Source: Streptomyces griseus (lineage in GTDB: Bacteria; Actinomycetota; Actinomycetes; Nanopelagicales; Nanopelagicaceae). Taken from it: a stretch of DNA of 64,000 nucleotides. Location: NCBI GenBank assembly GCA_945884695.1, contig CAMCYO010000005.1:1-64000 (forward strand), in the 5' to 3' direction. Both the position numbers and the translations under genes were made by a program. Numbering within the stretch: position 1 is the stretch's first letter; every line of letters starts with the position of its first letter. The notes under the pieces were generated by a model. The model had not been told where the DNA came from. It saw only the letters and a list, made by a program, of their open reading frames with translations, and ran no database searches. Below are positions 43,217 to 54,633 of the stretch, in pieces.

Positions 43217-44431
43217 TTAGAGTCCGTGGGCTCCCGGGACTTTGCCAGTTGCATCAAATACGTAAGGCGCAGAGGCCAAAACATCAGACACATTTACTGC
43301 ATCATGCATTGTCACAACAACCGTTATATCTGCCCCTTTTGCAGCTAGCGGCTGCGAACTCTCATCTTTCCAAGCCTTAACAACTGGATCATGCCAACGC
43401 ACAAGGGCGCCTTGTACTTTAAGTGCTTCGATAACAATTTCTGCAGGAGTCTCTCTTGTATCAGCAACATTTGGCTTATACGCAACACCAACAACTAAGA
43501 CGCTTTTACCTTTAAGGCTTGCCCCATTGTCGCGCGCCACTCTTTCAACAATGTAATGAGGCATTGCTAAGTTCACTTCGTTAGCGCGCTTAATAAATGT
43601 TGCAGGCACTCCTAAGCGCTCTGACACTTCCGCCAAATACGTTGGGTCGATAGGGATGCAATGTCCACCAACCCCAGCACTTGGGTTGAATCGCATAAAC
43701 CCATAAGGTTTGGTATTTGCAGCGTCCAAGGTTTCGTGAACTGAAATACCTATCGCATCAGCTATTTGTGCAAATTCATTAACAAGAGCGATGTTGACTT
43801 GCCTAAATGTGTTTTCAAATAACTTGGCAGCTTCGGCAACTTCAGGCGATGAAACTTCTACCAAGTTGTCACAAAAACTTGAATAGAAAGCGCGAGTCTT
43901 TTCTGACGCCTCTGGCGTTAAACCTGCATACAACCTTGGAGTATTTTTCTGTCCCCATTTTTCATTACCTGGATCCACACGTTCTGGTGATACTGCGTAC
44001 AAGTGATCCAATTTCTTAGCTGCGTTCTTCTCAATCATCGGTGCAATCAAATCGCGCACTGTGCCCGGAAAAGATGTTGATTCATTGATGATCAGTGCAG
44101 GTGCATCTAAGTGAGCGGCAATTGATTTACATGCAGATTCAAGAAAAGCGGTATCTGGTGCACGGTGTGCGTCCAGTGGAGTCGGTACAGCAATAATCAC
44201 AATCTCTGATCCTGCAATATCTGATGCGTTGGCAGTAGCCCGGTATTTGCCCGCCTTTATTGCACCCTGTAAATCAATAGATGCCACGCCTTCTATATGA
44301 GAATCTCCACTATTGAGGCAGGTTGCTAGGACAGCGTTGTTATCAAACCCAGTTACTTCATGACCCGACTTTGCTGCCGAGATAGCAATAGTTAGCCCGA
44401 CATAGCCTTGCCCGATAACTGAAATTCGCAC
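43217..44431 (-). CDS. UDP-sugar 6-dehydrogenase (WecC/UDP-ManNAc or UDP-GlcNAc dehydrogenase type)
   Basis: A 404-residue NAD-dependent dehydrogenase that makes a UDP-uronic acid. N-terminal Gly-Gln-Gly-Tyr-Val-Gly-Leu at residues 7-13, catalytic C258 in Gly-Gly-His-Cys-Ile-Pro-Ile-Asp-Pro, and the C-terminal Tyr-Lys-Pro-Asn-Val-Ala-Asp-Thr-Arg-Glu-Thr segment. The Gly-Gly-His-Cys form favours a UDP-HexNAc over a UDP-glucose substrate. It lies 12 bases from the end of the O-antigen-ligase-like gene upstream, so the two are probably co-transcribed. Confidence 0.9.
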   Translation of the reverse strand: MRISVIGQGYVGLTIAISAAKSGHEVTGFDNNAVLATCLNSGDSHIEGVASIDLQGAIKAGKYRATANASDIAGSEIVIIAVPTPLDAHRAPDTAFLESACKSIAAHLDAPALIINESTSFPGTVRDLIAPMIEKNAAKKLDHLYAVSPERVDPGNEKWGQKNTPRLYAGLTPEASEKTRAFYSSFCDNLVEVSSPEVAEAAKLFENTFRQVNIALVNEFAQIADAIGISVHETLDAANTKPYGFMRFNPSAGVGGHCIPIDPTYLAEVSERLGVPATFIKRANEVNLAMPHYIVERVARDNGASLKGKSVLVVGVAYKPNVADTRETPAEIVIEALKVQGALVRWHDPVVKAWKDESSQPLAAKGADITVVVTMHDAVNVSDVLASAPYVFDATGKVPGAHGL

Positions 44432-44443
44432 CTTGTTTTGGCC

Positions 44444-46144
44444 CTATTTAAGTTCATTCAAAGTTGTATTCAACGGATCAAGTTGTTTCATATGTTTGAT
44501 TGCGTTAGCTTTTTCTTTTTGAGAAACTGTTTTGACCATTGTTACTACTGTCCATGCATTTGAATCATTTGGATTAAATTTTGTTGCCTCTCTTGCAACA
44601 GTTAGAGCTTGTTGGTCGTAATTATTGTTAGCTAATATGCTGGCTGTATACGCTAAACGATAAGAATCCATTGGATGAGATAGGGCAGCCTGTTGAATAA
44701 GATCCACTTTTGTAGACCTTACTGCCCAGTACCAACGATTATCTGACATGAACGATGGAAGCACCAAGAGTAACCCAATCATTCCTGCTAATGCACCGAT
44801 GAGGATTGTTGAAGCCGGCAATGAATAATTAGCTTTTTGGATTCGTCGCTTACTTGCTTTTCTTGACGTTACAGCTATTCCCGGCGAGGACTCTCGGGTA
44901 CAAATCTCGTATGAGATCAAGGCGCCACCGAGTAGCCAGCCCCAAATCGCTAATCCAATTTGATTAATACTTACTGCTGACTGAACTTGAAATCCGATCC
45001 AGCCCGCTGTCAAAGCAGCAAATGTTGCATCGTAAGATCGCTTCCTTAGCGTTAGGCGAATAATTGCACGAACGCTGAAAGCAATAAGTATTAAATAGGT
45101 TACGAATAGAAACAATCCACCGCTTGCAAACATATCAAGAAATACATTATGTGCTGCATTAACCACCGTATTTGGTCCTGGCAAAACAAGGGCACTCGGT
45201 CTGCGTTCGCGCCGATACCAATCTCCATACGTATCCAAGCCAACACCAAAGATCGGGTGACTTTTCCCGGTGTTGATTGCACCCGCCCAATACTCACCAC
45301 GCAAAGAAACTGAAGTTTTGTAAATGTACTGACTCAGTGGACCCTTCTGCAGGGCCCCCATAAGGGACATAAATCCAGCAATTGACAGGAGAATCACGTA
45401 TCCAACTGTTGCGAAATTGTTTTTGAACCACGCCCTAACAACATAGAATCCAACTACAGCAATGCCAATCCCTGCAACTGCAAACCCTTGAATTGCATGG
45501 CTCATCTTTATTTCGATTAAGGCAAGAATTGCATATAGGAGCGAGAATGCCCTTAGCTTCCAAGTGGAAGATTTTGCCACCAGCCAGGCAATAGAAACCA
45601 CAACAGTAATACCAAGAAAAGCAGAAATAAAATCTGGATTTCCTAAAGTCCCCAAAATTGTATTGTATGTATTATTCCAAGGTAAAGGATCATTATGTGT
45701 CAGTTGAAGTATTCCATACAGGGCATTAACAACTCCAGCAATCATAAGAGCTTTTAATAAATTTCCTGAGAATTTAAGTTGTTTTAGAGTCGCTGTGGCG
45801 ACAAAGATAAAAAGAAAACTTAAGTATGTGATAAGACCTGTATTTCGACCATAGTTACCAAAGAGCAGTTGTGATAATGGTGCCTTACTAAACACTACTG
45901 ATGCGAAAAGAGCTACCATGAAAAGTGTAGAAGCGATTAATAGGGAAGAATTGTCTCGCGCTCGGATGACCTTCCATTGAGAAAGGGTCAACCCTAAAAG
46001 CGTAAAAGCCAACGGAGCCAGAACCAGCATCTTCGTGATATTTACTGGATCCGATACTCCTTCCATTAAAATGAATAGCGTTATAAAGGGACCAGAAAAT
46101 AACAAAAGGCGAGCAACAGAATTCTCAATTGATATATTTTGCAT
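44444..46144 (-). CDS. O-antigen ligase / Wzy-like membrane protein
   Basis: About 566 residues with roughly 12 hydrophobic helices and the Wzy_C/WaaL-type extracytoplasmic loop between residues ~280 and 360 (Gly-Val-Gly-Leu-Asp-Thr-Tyr-Gly, then His-Asn-Val-Phe-Leu-Asp). The C-terminal ~90 residues, after the last helix, resemble a tetratricopeptide-like repeat. The ORF is open to 46213 but that start would lie inside a transcription terminator; ATG 46144 is chosen. It likely polymerises or transfers a surface polysaccharide. Confidence 0.88.
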   Translation of the reverse strand: MQNISIENSVARLLLFSGPFITLFILMEGVSDPVNITKMLVLAPLAFTLLGLTLSQWKVIRARDNSSLLIASTLFMVALFASVVFSKAPLSQLLFGNYGRNTGLITYLSFLFIFVATATLKQLKFSGNLLKALMIAGVVNALYGILQLTHNDPLPWNNTYNTILGTLGNPDFISAFLGITVVVSIAWLVAKSSTWKLRAFSLLYAILALIEIKMSHAIQGFAVAGIGIAVVGFYVVRAWFKNNFATVGYVILLSIAGFMSLMGALQKGPLSQYIYKTSVSLRGEYWAGAINTGKSHPIFGVGLDTYGDWYRRERRPSALVLPGPNTVVNAAHNVFLDMFASGGLFLFVTYLILIAFSVRAIIRLTLRKRSYDATFAALTAGWIGFQVQSAVSINQIGLAIWGWLLGGALISYEICTRESSPGIAVTSRKASKRRIQKANYSLPASTILIGALAGMIGLLLVLPSFMSDNRWYWAVRSTKVDLIQQAALSHPMDSYRLAYTASILANNNYDQQALTVAREATKFNPNDSNAWTVVTMVKTVSQKEKANAIKHMKQLDPLNTTLNELK

Positions 46145-46175
46145 AACCTTATTGTAGGGGGAGGAAAAGCCAAAA

Positions 46176-46203
46176 CCCCGCTCCTGCATTAGCAGGAGCG
46201 GGG
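46176..46203 (-). terminator. Rho-independent terminator after the surface-protein gene
   Basis: A 12-bp perfect stem CCCCGCTCCTGC / GCAGGAGCGGGG around a 4-base loop. On the minus strand it follows the stop of the 653-aa surface protein (46259) by about 55 bases and is followed by TTTTGGCTTTT. It isolates the surface-protein gene from the Wzy-like gene. Confidence 0.9.
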
Positions 46204-46258
46204 CCTTGGTCAAGCATTGAGATTAAGTACTACATCGGAGACTTGCCCCGACTTAGCC

Positions 46259-48220
46259 TTACTTCTGCTTTGCTTGGATAGCTTTGATGATCTTGTAGAT
46301 ATTAGCAAGTGATGCGCTCAACTTATCAAGCAGACCAGTTACCTTGATACCTAGATCAGTTACAGCAGCAAGAGCAGCATCTGCTGACTCTTGTGCAAGT
46401 GCTGCAGCAGCACCAGCATCAACAGCTGCTTGAGTTGCATTGTCCGCTGCATCTGCTGCTGCATAAGCTGCGTCAGTTGCCTCGTTCGCTGCATCAAGTG
46501 CTGCATCAGCAGATCCACCAGAAACAGTTGCTGTTGCTGTAATTACCTTAGCTGAAGAAGCTAGAAGCGCTACAGAATCAACGCCAGTTCCTTCAGTTGC
46601 AGAGATAGTTACATCACCTGAGATAAGTGGTGCGAACATTGTAAATGCTTTAGTTCCGCCATTAAGTGAAACTGTTGCAGAAGCAGCTGGTAGACCAGAG
46701 ATTGCTGCATTTGCAGTTAATCCGGTTGAGCTAAATAGGGTGCGAAGTGCATCCAATGTAACTCCGGTATTAACTGCGCTGTCAGCAACAGCTGATCCAT
46801 TTGAGTCAACAGCTGCTACCGTCAAAGTCATCTTCTCGCCTGGGGCGTAAGTTGCCTTATCGAATGTCAGTGTGAATGACTTCGCTGTTGTTTTTGTAAC
46901 AGTAACAGGGAATGTTGCTGAAATTGCACCAGTTGTACTGCAAACAACATTACATACTGTGATTACAGCAGTACCAGAACTTACACCAGTAACTATAACC
47001 AAGTTCGAAGCAACAGTTACAGAAGCAACTAGCGTATTTGAGCTACTAGCTACTGGAGCAGCAATTGCTGCAGCCTCATTATCAAGTGAATCTACTGGAA
47101 GTAGACTAATTGTGTCTGTATCGCCAACACCGATGTATGTCTTAGCGGTATCTGCATCACGAGTTATTTTTGTTACAGCTCCAACAGAGGTGATTACTTC
47201 TGTCGCCAACACCGTGGTTACAGAGGCAGCATCTGTATAACTGATTGTGATGGTTCCCGGTCCTGAAGATCCATCTGTATCAATGTGTACATATGCAACG
47301 TTTGTATCTGTCATAACAACAGATGATGAACGTGAGTTTCCTGTGTTCGCAGTTTGTGCCAAGTCAGCAAGAATTAAGCCCGCACCAGAAATGCTCGCAC
47401 TCAATGTTCCTCCATTGAGAACAGCATTTGAAGTGGTTTTAATTGTTACGGCAATAACACCGCACTGAGTACCAGCTGCCTTAGCGCAAGTGTAGGCGTC
47501 AGCATCTGCTGTAGCATTTGCTGTTCCGTCAGTAGCGTTCAGGATTGATGTTGAAAGGCCTGCGCTGAATCCAGCAGCGGCAGCAACAGTGATGCTAATA
47601 ACTGATGACATTTCACCAGCATCTTGTGCACCAGTTGAAGCTCCATCACCTGATTGGTTATAAACAGTCAGTTGATAAACGCCTGCAACAGTTGGTGTGA
47701 AGGTAAAGCTTCCAACACCAAGAATTGAACTGGCAGTTTTTGCAGATGCCACGGTTCCTGATGCATTGACGGTTGTAGATTCAACTTGAATCCAGTTTGC
47801 TGATCCAGAAGTTGCAGTTTCAACAACGAAACCGCTCAAAGTACCAGGAGTACCTGTATCGGATACTTGGCGGCCAATAACTTGTGCTCCACCGTTTGTT
47901 GGAACAGAAGTAAGAACGCCAACGAATTTGTTGACCACATCATTTGTTTGCAAGGCCGTTACTTGGCCAGACGATGTGTTTGATTCGCCGGCGCCAATGC
48001 TGGTACCGAAGTTAACGATTACAGCAGATCCAACTGTAGGCGATGTTGTTACCTGCGCAAGTGTAATTGCGTTGATGTACTGCATCTGGTTTGCATTGCC
48101 AAGGTTCCAAGTTGTAGCTGCAGCAGATGCTGGAGTTGAGACGATTGAGGAAAGAACCCCAAAGCCCAACGATGCAACTGCAACAAGCGCTACGCGCTTG
48201 AAGTTTGTCTTTGTAGACAT
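46259..48220 (-). CDS. Large exported surface protein with Ala-rich coiled-coil C-terminus
   Basis: About 653 residues from ATG 48220, which has AAAGGAAAAT just upstream. Residues 1-34 are a classical signal peptide ending Ala-Ser-Ala-Ala. The main body is rich in Thr, Ser, Val and Gly and looks like Ig-like/beta-sandwich modules. It contains one Cys pair around residue ~265-275 (Thr-Cys-Ala ... Gln-Cys-Gly) and another near Val-Cys-Asn-Val-Val-Cys. The last ~100 residues are Ala/Asp/Glu rich in a regular helical pattern, followed by Leu-Leu-Asp-Lys-Leu and an Ile/Lys-rich amphipathic tail. Dedicated terminator and long leader suggest high expression, S-layer-like. Start at 48355 rejected. 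Confidence 0.8.
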   Translation of the reverse strand: MSTKTNFKRVALVAVASLGFGVLSSIVSTPASAAATTWNLGNANQMQYINAITLAQVTTSPTVGSAVIVNFGTSIGAGESNTSSGQVTALQTNDVVNKFVGVLTSVPTNGGAQVIGRQVSDTGTPGTLSGFVVETATSGSANWIQVESTTVNASGTVASAKTASSILGVGSFTFTPTVAGVYQLTVYNQSGDGASTGAQDAGEMSSVISITVAAAAGFSAGLSTSILNATDGTANATADADAYTCAKAAGTQCGVIAVTIKTTSNAVLNGGTLSASISGAGLILADLAQTANTGNSRSSSVVMTDTNVAYVHIDTDGSSGPGTITISYTDAASVTTVLATEVITSVGAVTKITRDADTAKTYIGVGDTDTISLLPVDSLDNEAAAIAAPVASSSNTLVASVTVASNLVIVTGVSSGTAVITVCNVVCSTTGAISATFPVTVTKTTAKSFTLTFDKATYAPGEKMTLTVAAVDSNGSAVADSAVNTGVTLDALRTLFSSTGLTANAAISGLPAASATVSLNGGTKAFTMFAPLISGDVTISATEGTGVDSVALLASSAKVITATATVSGGSADAALDAANEATDAAYAAADAADNATQAAVDAGAAAALAQESADAALAAVTDLGIKVTGLLDKLSASLANIYKIIKAIQAKQK

Positions 48221-48239
48221 TATTTTCCTTTCGATTGTC

Positions 48240-48262
48240 GCAAACGAGACGTTCTCGCTTGC
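48240..48262. promoter_or_regulatory. Leader hairpin of the surface-protein gene
   Basis: Arms GCAAACGAGA (48240-48249) and TCTCGCTTGC (48253-48262) pair over 10 bp with one G-T (G-U in RNA) around a 3-base loop. It lies about 20 bases before the ribosome site of the surface-protein gene. A stabilising 5' hairpin is common on mRNAs of abundant surface proteins; a regulatory role is also possible. Confidence 0.6.
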
Positions 48263-48351
48263 GGCTTTGAAATGCGCTGTACGTACTAACGCATCTCTTT
48301 CCCCCCGCACTATCCGGAGTACAGAGGAAACCTTGTTTATTGCGGAGGCCA

Positions 48352-49752
48352 TCATGAAGTGGCTCCCTTGCTTGAGGTGGCTGAGTCAGAGATAGAAATA
48401 GCTTGACCTAAGATTTGATTCTTGCCAGCGGTGAGCAGCAAGCGCATCGTGATTGCCTTAGGTGCAGAGGACAAATCATACCCGTTGGGGTTTGTGGCCA
48501 GTTGCAAGGCTGAAATCTCGGCCGAGTCGATGATCATTGTCACGCTCATGAGGTAGTTGCCATTGGCTAGACGCTCGATATTGGTTGAAGTTGAGCTGAC
48601 GTTAAGTGAAGCCCAACCACCGTTGATACCAACCGCTGCATCTGCAGAGTAAGAAGTACCTGTTCCATCGACAGTAATAACTTGATTGATCAAAATGTTT
48701 GGACCATCGGCTGTTGTCATTGCCTTGGTTGTTAGCGTCATTCCGGCATCGGTAATTGCGGCGTTGTCTTTACCAACAAATAGCTTGCCAATCTTGTTTG
48801 ATGAATCAGCAACGGTGAAACCAGTTGGAATTCCTTCTTTATCTAGGCCGGCAAATGTTACGCGAGCACCTTTTACTGCAAAGCCACCAACTAAACCAAT
48901 TGTTTTACCTGCAGGAGTTGATGCAACAGATGAAGGTGTTGGTCGAGCAACTGCGCTAGGTGAAACATCAGCAACGCTTGCCTCTGGTGCGACATCAAGA
49001 GTTGGCGCAGTTGCCTCAACTTGTGCACTTGGAACAAATGAACCTTCGTTGCCGGTCATGGAATTAAATCCAAGGAATGCGGTAACAACTAATAGGAGTG
49101 AGAGGGCAATGGTTGAAGATTTCTTTGCAACAACAGATGCCTTCTTATATGAAGTAGAGAGAAGATCCAAGGCGGTAAGCCCACGCTCTTCGTCGACGAT
49201 AAGTTCGGAAAGTACGCGACGCAATGATGCGCGTGCACGAGAAACTGTGTGACGCACTGCAGTTTCTTTAATACCAAGTTCTGCTGCGATCTCCTCCGTT
49301 GAGCGACCTTCCATCTCCCACATAACAAGAGCTGCGCGCTCTGCTGGAGATAACATGGCAAGTGCTTGGCGAATAATTGCTGCATCTTCTGCAGCGCTGA
49401 GTGCTGCAGAGTGATCTCCGCTGTCTTGCCAGGTTGCTTCGATCTCTGCAGTTGCATCATCGAGTACAACAAGGTTTGGACGACGACCTTCTAGGCGGAA
49501 GAGGTCGATGCAGAGGTTTTCGATTGTGCGGTGTAGATAAGAAAGTGCATGTTCGGTTGATTCAAGCTCAGGGGCGGCGAGCATGAATTTAATCAAAGCA
49601 TCTTGAGTGATTTCCTCAGCTTTGGCTGAATCTTTAAGAACGCGATTTGCATGTGTTAAAAGTTCGCTGCGGTGCTCTGTGTAGAAAGCACCAAACTCAG
49701 CAACGGTCCAGGTAATAGGACTTGCTGAAGTTGCGGACTTCTTGCTTGACAC
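48352..49752 (-). CDS. ECF-like sigma factor fused to transmembrane helix and exported domain
   Basis: A 466-residue protein in three parts. Residues ~15-90 are sigma region 2 (Ala-Glu-Glu-Ile-Thr-Gln-Asp-Ala then Leu-Tyr/His-Arg-Thr-Ile-Glu-Asn). Residues ~120-185 are sigma region 4 with the helix-turn-helix Ser-Thr-Glu-Glu-Ile-Ala-Ala-Glu-Leu-Gly ... Val-Arg-His-Thr-Val-Ser-Arg-Ala-Arg. Residues 212-230 are a transmembrane helix, then a Pro/Ser/Thr/Val/Ala linker and a ~180-residue exported beta-rich domain. GTG start at 49752 with AGAAGGATC upstream. No separate anti-sigma gene is adjacent. It sits between two exported-protein genes on the same strand. Confidence 0.88.
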   Translation of the reverse strand: MSSKKSATSASPITWTVAEFGAFYTEHRSELLTHANRVLKDSAKAEEITQDALIKFMLAAPELESTEHALSYLHRTIENLCIDLFRLEGRRPNLVVLDDATAEIEATWQDSGDHSAALSAAEDAAIIRQALAMLSPAERAALVMWEMEGRSTEEIAAELGIKETAVRHTVSRARASLRRVLSELIVDEERGLTALDLLSTSYKKASVVAKKSSTIALSLLLVVTAFLGFNSMTGNEGSFVPSAQVEATAPTLDVAPEASVADVSPSAVARPTPSSVASTPAGKTIGLVGGFAVKGARVTFAGLDKEGIPTGFTVADSSNKIGKLFVGKDNAAITDAGMTLTTKAMTTADGPNILINQVITVDGTGTSYSADAAVGINGGWASLNVSSTSTNIERLANGNYLMSVTMIIDSAEISALQLATNPNGYDLSSAPKAITMRLLLTAGKNQILGQAISISDSATSSKGATS

Positions 49753-49967
49753 GGGGATCCTTCTTAACCGGTTTTGTAATGCAGAGCCGACCGTCGCCGC
49801 CTCTACCTGCTACTACGAATCCGATGGTACTTTGTCGCGGTCACTGGACAAAACGGACATTTCGCCAATCGGGAAGAGGCTCACCCTTGACTGGCCGGCT
49901 AGAGATCAGCTCGTTATGGTCTCCGGCTCTGCCAATCTCCGTGCGGAGCACGCCCGCCCCGGGATAC
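49753..49967. other. GC-rich 215-bp gap between sigma fusion and Ig-repeat gene
   Basis: No credible gene on either strand; the ORFs here are short and overlap neighbours. The base composition is visibly richer in G and C than its surroundings. It contains self-complementary runs such as CTCCG-TG-CGGAG (49937-49948) and GGC-TCT-GCC nearby. It would form the 5' leader of the sigma-fusion mRNA. I tried to match known riboswitches (c-di-AMP ydaO, TPP, cobalamin) and saw no consensus. Confidence 0.5.
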
Positions 49968-51947
49968 CTACTTAATAGAGAAGGTCTTTCTGTAGACAAC
50001 CTTGCCGGCCACGCTCACAATCACGCTTCTGGCCCCAGGCTTAACTGCATTGCTGCCAACTTTGGCGCTAACGCCATCGATAGTGACCTTCGTTTTTGGT
50101 TTTGTTGAGGCAATCGTTATGACGCGAGCGATCGCCGTAACTTTAAGAGTTGGTTTAAGAGTTAAAGAAGTGGATGGCTTTGGAGTTGGTGAAGAACTTG
50201 GCTGCACTGTTGCTGATCCTGAAGGTGTTGGTTGAGGAGTTGCAGAAGCTGACGTTGATGGCTGAGGAGTTGGCGTTGGCGTTGGCGCAACTACAGGATT
50301 GGGTTTAATTATCACCTTTGCTTGCACCGTGTTGGATTGTGAAAAGTTTCCTGCCGGTAATTGCGTTGCAGTGATTGTTGCGGTGCCGGCTCCGGCAATA
50401 ACCATCGAAGTTCCATTAAAAGTTACAACGCTCTTGTCAGATGATGCATAACTCCAGAAGCCAGAAGAATTGGACGTTGGCGCTTTCATGGCAATAGGTG
50501 CCTCACCCATTGTTGCTTCAATACCAGCAAGTGAACCAACTGTTGGAATATCTCCAAGAACACGAATTACTATCTGCGCAGTTGCCCCTGCCCAGATTGG
50601 GGTTACGACTTGGGTTGCAGTAATTGTTGCAGATCCTGCTCCAACGACTTTTGCGTTGCTACCAGTAATCTCAATTACTTTTATATCTGACGAAGTAAAA
50701 GTCCAACTTGAAGGCGATGTTGAAGTCGGAGGGACAAGTGCGAAATCTGAATCCTTAATGACTTTTTCAAAACTGCTCCACGCACCAACCGTTGGAACAC
50801 CAACAACTGTTAAAACCATTGTTAGAGGGGTTGATGCGCCGTAAGTACCTGCTGCAGATTGCGTTGTTGTAATTGTTGAAGTCCCAGGTTTTAATAAGGT
50901 AACGACTGCGCCTTGAACTGTGGCAACAGTTGTATCCGATGATGCATAACTCCACGACCCAGCAGAATTCGATGTAGGAGCAGTTAAAGTCAATGATTTA
51001 GCCGATGTTGGGGAAAAGTTTGCACTCACGCTTGGGAAAGTGCCAACGGTAGGAATCGCAGCTTGAACAGTGACAGTCATTGCAGTTTTTATTGATCCAA
51101 AGTTTCCTGAATGTGCTTGAGTAGCAGTAATAACTGATGTGCCAAGGCCCACTGGAGTGAGCAAGCTTCCGCTCACAGTTGCAACAGCTGGATTAGATGA
51201 AGAAAAAGTCCATGCACCAGGGGATGTAGAAGTTGGCGCGACCATTGCAACATAGGCAACGCTATCTTTCATTAACGTGATATTTCCAAAAGTTCCAATC
51301 ACGGGAGTAATTGCAACAATAGTGAGTTTCATGGTTTTCGAAGCAACTGTCCATAGAGGTAGCGCAGCTTGAGTTGCCGTGATTGTTACATCGCCACCAT
51401 CGAGCAAAGTTACTTTGTTATCTGCAATTGTTGCAATCGCTGTATTAGAGGACGCATATCGCCAAGTGCCAGTTGAGTTTGAAATAGGCGGAGTTAACGT
51501 AATGATTTTTTCTGTAATTTGCACTGTGCGGTCGGCAAAACCACTCAAAGTTGGTGTACCTGCAGTTACACGCAGACTTGCTGATCGAACACGCGATGTA
51601 TACACACCACTTGCAGCTTGAATCGCAGTCAATCGAGTTATTCCTAAACCAACCAAAGTTAAGACTCCTCCAGAAACAGTTGCAATGGTTGGGTCATCAG
51701 TTGTGTAAGACCATGAACCAGGAGATGTCGAGGTTGGCGGAACCAAAGTTATTTTTCCATCACTGATGGGAACTGTCATTGAGGGAAAGCCACTAAATAC
51801 TGGGTCAAGTGCGTTAGCTACTGAAATTGAAGAAGCGGTCAAAAGTGAAAGTAGAACAACCACAAATGTAGTTCTGCGAAATTTACCTTGGATTCCAGTA
51901 GGCGTTTTCACATGTGAGTGCACGCGCTTATTATCTCCAAGGTCCAC
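49968..51947 (-). CDS. Exported protein with six Ig-like (BIG2-type) repeats and a Pro/Thr/Ser linker
   Basis: About 650 residues. A basic N-terminus and hydrophobic segment (about residues 25-46) form a signal/anchor. Then six modules of ~83 residues each, with the recurring pattern Ala-Pro-Thr-Ser-(Thr/Asn)-Ser ... Gly-(Ser/Ala)-Trp-(Ser/Thr)-(Tyr/Phe)-(Ala/Ser)-Ser-Ser ... Val-Ala-Thr-Val ... Ile-Thr-Ala-Thr-Gln. A Pro-Thr-Pro-rich stretch of ~45 residues follows and a final ~65-residue beta domain. Start uncertain: GTG 51947 is the longest; GTG 51923 is an in-frame alternative. Likely cell-surface adhesin or stalk. Confidence 0.82.
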   Translation of the reverse strand: MDLGDNKRVHSHVKTPTGIQGKFRRTTFVVVLLSLLTASSISVANALDPVFSGFPSMTVPISDGKITLVPPTSTSPGSWSYTTDDPTIATVSGGVLTLVGLGITRLTAIQAASGVYTSRVRSASLRVTAGTPTLSGFADRTVQITEKIITLTPPISNSTGTWRYASSNTAIATIADNKVTLLDGGDVTITATQAALPLWTVASKTMKLTIVAITPVIGTFGNITLMKDSVAYVAMVAPTSTSPGAWTFSSSNPAVATVSGSLLTPVGLGTSVITATQAHSGNFGSIKTAMTVTVQAAIPTVGTFPSVSANFSPTSAKSLTLTAPTSNSAGSWSYASSDTTVATVQGAVVTLLKPGTSTITTTQSAAGTYGASTPLTMVLTVVGVPTVGAWSSFEKVIKDSDFALVPPTSTSPSSWTFTSSDIKVIEITGSNAKVVGAGSATITATQVVTPIWAGATAQIVIRVLGDIPTVGSLAGIEATMGEAPIAMKAPTSNSSGFWSYASSDKSVVTFNGTSMVIAGAGTATITATQLPAGNFSQSNTVQAKVIIKPNPVVAPTPTPTPQPSTSASATPQPTPSGSATVQPSSSPTPKPSTSLTLKPTLKVTAIARVITIASTKPKTKVTIDGVSAKVGSNAVKPGARSVIVSVAGKVVYRKTFSIK

Positions 51948-52073: not shown

Positions 52074-52153
52074 TGTGGGCCCTGTCGGGCTCGAACCGAC
52101 GACCCACGGATTAAAAGTCCGTTGCTCTACCGACTGAGCTATAGGCCCCACTG
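52074..52153. repeat. Direct repeat A (80 bp), tRNA-Lys copy 1, flanking cassette
   Basis: The 80 bases at 52074-52153 recur at 54554-54633, 2,480 bases away, in the same orientation with one difference (T at 52142, A at 54622). The repeat contains the whole tRNA-Lys gene plus a few flanking bases on each side. Sequence outside it differs immediately. Confidence 0.95.
52076..52148 (-). tRNA. tRNA-Lys (TTT), copy 1, with acceptor-stem mismatch
   Basis: Cloverleaf on the minus strand: D arm GCTCAGTCGGTAGAGC, anticodon loop CTTTTAA (anticodon TTT), T loop TTCGAGC. The acceptor is GGGCCTA with AGGGCCC, so the bottom pair 7-66 is A-A, unpaired, unlike copy 2. CCA is not encoded (the discriminator A is followed by CA then T). 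Confidence 0.9.
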
Positions 52154-52291: not shown

Positions 52292-52594
52292 TTATAAGTG
52301 AAGGGAAAACATCCTGATCGCATCTTGAATTACACTTAAAGTGGAGGCGGTATCGGTCGCGAGTTCCGAATTCCGCAATCTTGGAACTGTCGTTCCTAGT
52401 GTTTTCGCAATCTGCGCAATCTCTAAGTCATCGGTAGAAACCACAATAGAATCGAACATGAAAGACCTTTTTGCCGCCTCAATTGGATAAGCGAGCATTG
52501 GTTTTCTATGGAAAATGTGGATGTTTTTCCTTGGGATACGCTTAGAACCACCCCTAGCTGGAATGACACAATAAAAAATTGATTCCATGTTCAC
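52292..52594 (-). pseudogene. Truncated CMP-sugar synthase (NeuA/PseF-like), N-terminal fragment
   Basis: A 100-residue ORF matching only the N-terminal half of acylneuraminate cytidylyltransferases: Ile-Pro-Ala-Arg-Gly-Gly-Ser-Lys-Arg-Ile-Pro-Arg-Lys-Asn (CTP-binding loop, residues ~11-24), Met-Leu-Ala-Tyr-Pro-Ile-Glu-Ala-Ala and Val-Val-Ser-Thr-Asp-Asp. Full-length enzymes are ~220-235 residues; the C-terminal half with the substrate and dimer regions is absent downstream. Probably a remnant of a nonulosonic acid gene, left inside the tRNA-Lys cassette. Confidence 0.78.
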
Positions 52595-54553: not shown

Positions 54554-54633
54554 TGTGGGCCCTGTCGGGCTCGAACCGACGACCCACGGATTAAAAGTCC
54601 GTTGCTCTACCGACTGAGCTAAAGGCCCCACTG
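54554..54633. repeat. Direct repeat B (80 bp), tRNA-Lys copy 2, flanking cassette
   Basis: Second copy of the repeat at 52074-52153, same orientation, one base different. It bounds the right side of the neuA-fragment / PIG-L / methyltransferase cassette. Around it, 54400-54553 and 54634-54918 hold no credible gene; ORFs at 54425-54622 and 54661-54849 are shadows or short chance frames. Confidence 0.95.
54556..54628 (-). tRNA. tRNA-Lys (TTT), copy 2
   Basis: Identical to copy 1 except at position 7: acceptor GGGCCTT with AGGGCCC now pairs at all seven positions. Anticodon TTT. No encoded CCA. The intact acceptor makes this the more standard copy. Confidence 0.95.

Follow-up and report, generated by a model that had tools for sequence, protein, structure and literature searches.

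ECF sigma factors that are tethered or fused to a membrane part have already been described as ECF52, ECF53, ECF48, and IutY (PMC8999054, PMC5826349). SCO4117 of Streptomyces coelicolor (ECF52), for which there is truncation evidence for release, combines sigma regions 2 and 4, a transmembrane (TM) part, a proline-rich stretch, and an outer carbohydrate-binding domain in one polypeptide, and a zinc-finger anti-sigma domain lies between its sigma and TM parts (PMC5826349, PMC8999054). The actinobacterial ECF53 and ECF48 carry membrane-spanning C-terminal extensions of the zinc-finger (ZAS-like) type, which are thought to be fused anti-sigma factors (PMC8999054). IutY (ECF243) of Pseudomonas putida is fused to a membrane-bound regulator, the anti-sigma factor of an iron cell-surface signalling system, and is released by Prc and RseP (PMC8999054).

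The window, i.e., the whole stretch of 64,000 nucleotides that was analyzed, encodes a protein of related design (Table 1). One ORF comprises a sigma head, a juxtamembrane segment with a TM helix, and an outer beta domain, and a codirectional surface-protein gene follows behind a leader. The sequence-only reading had set this architecture apart from the classical ECF sigma factors. The fusion of the sigma factor, anchor, and outer domain and the surface gene behind it held, but the claim was too strong in view of ECF52, ECF53, ECF48, and IutY (PMC8999054, PMC5826349). The protein, which is actinobacterial as SCO4117 is, shares with it sigma regions 2 and 4, the TM part, the proline-rich stretch, and the outer domain; however, the zinc-finger domain of ECF52 was not found in it, and its ectodomain matched no Pfam family above the cut-off and gave no clear fold match. 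In contrast to the zinc-finger extensions of ECF53 and ECF48, its segment between region 4 and the TM helix has approximately 30 residues and no conserved Cys (many members of the family have no Cys at all), and no domain of the IutY type was recognized. As far as the open literature that was searched shows, a fused, tethered sigma factor without an anti-sigma domain is new, as are the conserved juxtamembrane/TM module, the exchange of head and promoter, and the RNA leader. No relevant open literature on an S-layer or a sigma factor of acI actinobacteria was found.

Table 1. Features of the fusion gene, its promoter, and its neighbors in the window
Feature	Coordinates	Strand	Basis
Fusion: ECF sigma, juxtamembrane segment, TM, linker, and ectodomain, 466 residues	48352..49752	(-)	ORF, Pfam, hydropathy, alignment
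Sigma region 2, residues 23-90	49483..49686	(-)	Pfam PF04542
Sigma region 4, residues 126-177	49222..49377	(-)	Pfam PF08281
Juxtamembrane segment, residues 183-211, GLTALDxLSTTYKKAAELAKKSS	49120..49206	(-)	Conservation
TM helix, about residues 212-231, KVALSLLLVxTAFLGFNS	49060..49119	(-)	Hydropathy, conservation
Pro/Ser/Thr/Ala-rich linker, residues 232-290	48883..49059	(-)	Least conserved; AF2 pLDDT ~30
Predicted beta-rich ectodomain, residues 291-458	48379..48882	(-)	AF2
Upstream box TGTCCGTTTTGTC, class I promoter region	49847..49859	(-)	Near-invariant in 38 class I upstream regions
-35-like element CGACAA	49832..49837	(-)	Conserved before class I sigma genes
-10-like element ATTCGTAG	49813..49820	(-)	Conserved before class I sigma genes
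Structured RNA leader of the surface-protein gene	48218..48336	(-)	Covariation, folding
Leader hairpins P1, P2, and P4	48299-48330, 48269-48297, and 48239-48263	(-)	
Exported surface protein (putatively S-layer-like), 653 residues, signal peptide MSTKTNFKRVALVAVASLGFGVLSS, Ala-rich C terminus	46259..48220	(-)	Follows sigma gene
O-antigen ligase/polymerase-like membrane protein (Wzy_C)	44444..46213	(-)	PF04932; next gene in many loci
UDP-glucose/GDP-mannose dehydrogenase family	43217..44431	(-)	PF03721/PF00984/PF03720; next gene in many loci
Exported Big_2 repeat protein, upstream neighbor	49968..51947	(-)	PF02368

The strand and length of the proposed 466-residue ORF were correct, and both of the sigma regions claimed for it were recovered above the Pfam cut-off (Sigma70_r2 with E 5e-12 and Sigma70_r4_2 with E 2e-14). 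Region 3 is absent, its Pfam match being insignificant and overlapping region 4, which places the protein among the ECF sigma factors. TIGR02937 also matched above its cut-off; an NCBIfam equivalog cut-off was reached by none of the matches listed, and no Pfam domain was recognized beyond about residue 190. The single hydrophobic helix of the sequence-only reading corresponded to one TM stretch predicted by hydropathy (residues 214-232), preceded on the inner side by Lys residues, which would fit the expected N-in/C-out topology. Exactly one such stretch was predicted in 66 of 67 aligned relatives (L078 has a second, borderline stretch within the sigma part), and the TM helix follows region 4 in all aligned members. 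The proposed linker and C-terminal domain were borne out as the least conserved part (residues 232-285) and a moderately conserved part (residues 286-466). The TM helix (IALSLLLVVTAFLGF, 49060-49119) resembles the surface protein's signal peptide (VALVAVASLGFG, 48145-48211), which may reflect composition only.

A zinc-finger or FecR-type anti-sigma domain hidden in the linker was considered and rejected, as neither zf-HC2 nor FecR was found in the fusion by a Pfam scan (E<=1). A separate anti-sigma gene paired with the fusion was not encountered either: no adjacent gene looks like one, and no zf-HC2 (PF13490) protein was retrieved from the whole genome.

The search of GTDB species genomes yielded 75 loci; uncultured Actinomycetota and Candidatus Nanopelagicaceae (e.g., Planktophila) account for nearly all of them. 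The MAG names of a few are doubtful (Bifidobacterium breve, Streptomyces griseus), and a single match in a betaproteobacterium spans just 29 residues at a contig end. Full-length, unbroken ORFs were present in more than 60 distinct Nanopelagicaceae loci, so chance or a local frame artefact, the objection raised by the sequence-only reading itself, is excluded. The fusion is not universal, being missing from two of the 17 one-contig genomes of the family. A phage origin was also rejected, as the viral contigs contained no relative and the phage records gave one weak, sigma-only match.

Conservation was measured as the mean fraction of the commonest residue in the 67 aligned sequences. It was 0.74 for region 2, 0.80 for region 4, 0.81 for the juxtamembrane segment (residues 183-211), 0.87 for the TM helix, 0.37 for the linker, and 0.54 for the ectodomain. 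The juxtamembrane segment and TM helix thus roughly match region 4 in conservation and exceed region 2, which favors a sequence-specific role over mere anchoring. This module occurred once per genome and always within the fusion gene (19/19 genomes with a match). Among 297 sampled genomes of the class, the ectodomain profile gave 24 matches, all within the fusion family, and 23 of the 24 lay in frames of 388-548 aa. Leaving aside the remaining match, in a 150-aa frame, neither the ectodomain nor the TM module was found separated from the sigma factor, and the three parts form one polypeptide throughout the family, as had been claimed.

AF2 predicted the ectodomain as a confident, beta-rich structure (mean pLDDT 91, pTM 0.85). 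The full-length fold search was taken up by sigma structures; with the ectodomain alone, no clear match in the PDB was obtained (Foldseek E>=0.15), and the best VIA Z was 5.6 (8t0b/8t1m, an unknown domain, over 101 and 94 residues with rmsd 4.0 and 3.6). A known fold was therefore rejected, as common arrangements reach higher VIA Z values than these (<=5.6).

The sigma heads form two clades, each with 100/100 support and with approximately 51% identity between them. Upstream of the genes we found two ECF-like promoters, CGACAA-N11-ATTCGTAG with the upstream box TGTCCGTTTTGTC (class I) and CAACATTTG-N11-TGTCTT (class II). The promoter type matched the head clade in 47/47 loci scored, where L033 was counted as class I by its tree position (the residue rule gave the other label) and L098 has the class I upstream box only. 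In the tree of the TM helix and ectodomain, the head label requires five changes, at least four of them forced by supported branches (L063 and L078 are on long branches). Mosaics such as L055 and L066 show a jump in nucleotide identity at about residues 183-215; between these two, identity is 47-72% across the head and 72-86% from residue 201. The tree discordance and the identity jumps together indicate that promoter and head were repeatedly exchanged against the TM helix and ectodomain. The joint movement of two head classes with two ECF-type promoters strongly suggests that the sigma factor transcribes its own promoter, although co-transfer of physically linked elements can be hitchhiking, and the evidence for self-recognition is thus suggestive and not conclusive.

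The exact combination of the class I -35 and -10 elements occurred once in the genome of the window. A wider regulon defined by the promoter consensus was rejected for this genome, as looser matches were no more frequent than with the reversed-pattern control. A class II genome contained one exact class II promoter and six sites with two mismatches (control 2). As the exact promoter is single in both genomes, the regulon may be one operon. A second TGTCCGTTTTGT site in the window (55164) lies inside an acyltransferase-like gene and was taken as chance. The class I upstream box and -35 element (49832-49859, minus strand) have the look of an inverted repeat (TTTGTCC...GCGACAAA), a possible regulator site.

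The sequence-only reading had placed the fusion between two large exported-protein genes. An exported gene directly downstream was found in nearly all loci reaching far enough, but the upstream Big_2 gene was found in about a dozen loci only; the placement holds widely on the downstream side alone. In the downstream protein, the signal peptide is conserved (MSTKTxFKR...) and the C terminus is rich in Ala, and Wzy-like and UDP-sugar dehydrogenase genes often come after it. In the window, its start is the ATG at 48220 and not at 48355, and the stretch between is the RNA leader. This protein consists of 43% Ala+Thr+Ser and has a net charge of -18, and it is from this composition only that we call it S-layer-like. 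In 111 species pairs whose sigma heads share at least 90% identity, the mean identity was 93% in the head, 88% in the juxtamembrane/TM module, 66% in the ectodomain, and 41% in the surface protein. The similarity of the surface protein tracked that of the ectodomain (partial rank correlation 0.46) more than that of the head (0.12). Many metagenome contigs end at the sigma gene, which is consistent with strain-level variability of the surface-protein gene; L051, L053, L059, L061, L067, L100, L101, and L195 are on contigs that end inside or just past it. One locus (L057, 4980-9881) contains a tandem duplication in the order sigma, surface protein, second sigma, and second leader.

The leader lies between the sigma stop codon and the surface-protein ATG and is arranged as P1, P2, P4, Shine-Dalgarno AAAGGA, and ATG, with the hairpins conserved in 55 aligned sequences. 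Its consensus has 29 pairs, 23 of which covary with changes on both sides. Paired cells amounted to 97.4% versus 73.8% in shuffles (0/500 as high) and to 36-51% when the alignment was slid. The leader in the window folds at -46.7 kcal/mol (z -5.83) and leaves the Shine-Dalgarno free. In the genome sample, one full copy was found per genome, beside the sigma gene. Shortened or degenerate leaders precede surface-protein copies away from any sigma gene (L085, L089, L129, and L130), and the leader thus belongs to the surface-protein gene. Like riboswitches and stabilizing 5' UTRs, it has conserved hairpins right before the Shine-Dalgarno of one gene family; unlike described leaders, it matched no Rfam 15 family at the gathering score (a search at E<=10 gave one chance match, E 7.4). 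It is a candidate for a new RNA family, and the plain reading is a stabilizing or processing element, though it may be a riboswitch.

We give slightly better than an even chance to the reading that this single polypeptide is an ECF sigma factor held at the membrane and in control of its own operon, the main product of which would be the adjacent hypervariable surface protein. As the fusion has no zinc-finger or FecR-type domain and the genome has no zf-HC2, the tether itself would be the simplest inhibition. The sigma factor would be inactive or limited while tethered; a signal from outside, for which the state of the surface layer is a plausible candidate, would trigger cleavage of the ectodomain, and a subsequent intramembrane cleavage in the conserved TM helix would free the head to transcribe the sigma and surface-protein genes. 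The leader may then raise or control surface-protein expression relative to that of the sigma factor on the shared transcript. The genome encodes one M50 site-2 protease. To our knowledge, such proteases are present in almost every genome, and its presence thus argues only weakly for release. By analogy, release of the fusion by proteolysis would follow the IutY precedent and the SCO4117 model (PMC8999054, PMC5826349).

The sequence conservation of the TM helix and its cytosolic flank would also fit a sigma factor that is active in the membrane and recruits RNA polymerase there. Transcription, translation, and export of the surface protein would then share one site, and the ectodomain would modulate activity through its conformation, with no cleavage. 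The main neighbor is indeed one exported protein, and, with no anti-sigma domain recognized, the tether alone would have to silence the sigma factor. We nevertheless regard an active tether as unlikely, as the precedents of fused sigma factors (IutY and the SCO4117 model) point to proteolysis (PMC8999054, PMC5826349), and an active tether needs no sensor, yet all complete family members keep the ectodomain. Control could instead be mainly transcriptional, exerted through the upstream boxes by a regulator at the TGTCCGTTTTGTCC...GACAAA repeats, with the ectodomain as a structural part of the envelope and not a sensor. This is decidedly improbable; it accords with the extra near-invariant box and the inverted-repeat look overlapping the -35 element in class I upstream regions, and with the fast divergence of the ectodomain, as for an exposed structural part, but it leaves both the fusion of sigma factor and ectodomain and the strong juxtamembrane/TM conservation unexplained. 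There is only a slight chance that an unlinked anti-sigma factor of an unrecognized type controls the fusion and that the tether is secondary. The genome has another ECF-sized sigma factor, and the genome-wide anti-sigma search covered zf-HC2 only; against such a factor stand the genome-wide absence of zf-HC2 and the lack of an anti-sigma-like gene next to the fusion.

The reading of a tethered sigma factor controlling its own operon can be extended to a cassette at the tRNA-Lys locus, a possibility that we put forward tentatively. This cassette would combine an exchangeable sigma head and promoter, a fixed juxtamembrane/TM release module, an ectodomain that diversifies, and a hypervariable surface protein preceded by a structured RNA leader of a separate class. 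The ectodomain would read the surface layer that the operon makes, giving a one-protein homeostat without an anti-sigma factor, and head swaps would rewire it. Two tRNA-Lys(TTT) genes (52075-52149 and 54555-54628, both on the minus strand) flank a cytidylyltransferase-like fragment (52292-52594), a PIG-L-like gene, and a methyltransferase-like gene, a stretch that looks like an island site. A codirectional tRNA-Lys(TTT) gene upstream of the sigma gene was also present in 15 scanned relatives.

The acI actinobacteria rank among the most abundant bacteria of fresh water. They keep very few sigma factors; in the genome here (1.48 Mb, 31 contigs), region 2 was matched only three times: in a 535-aa frame (the best match), in a 210-aa ECF-sized frame, and in the fusion. 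That one of so few sigma factors is spent on a tethered switch by a hypervariable surface protein would single out the cell surface as one of the chief regulated traits, with phages or grazers perhaps exerting the pressure. Judging from the natural swaps of heads, a sigma circuit may be rewired by an exchange of head and promoter.

With a profile of the head and TM helix, additional relatives were detected in one other family of the class; three of them align into the TM helix. Four ORFs of this second family (405-595 aa, one of them cut by a contig end) encode a sigma head followed by one TM helix and a Pro-rich linker, and no structured RNA leader was found in this family. In L194, where the contig extends further, a large exported protein is encoded 271 nt downstream of the fusion. 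L020 ends after the head and has no TM helix or ectodomain, and an exported protein is still encoded downstream; the tether is thus not indispensable for the gene arrangement.
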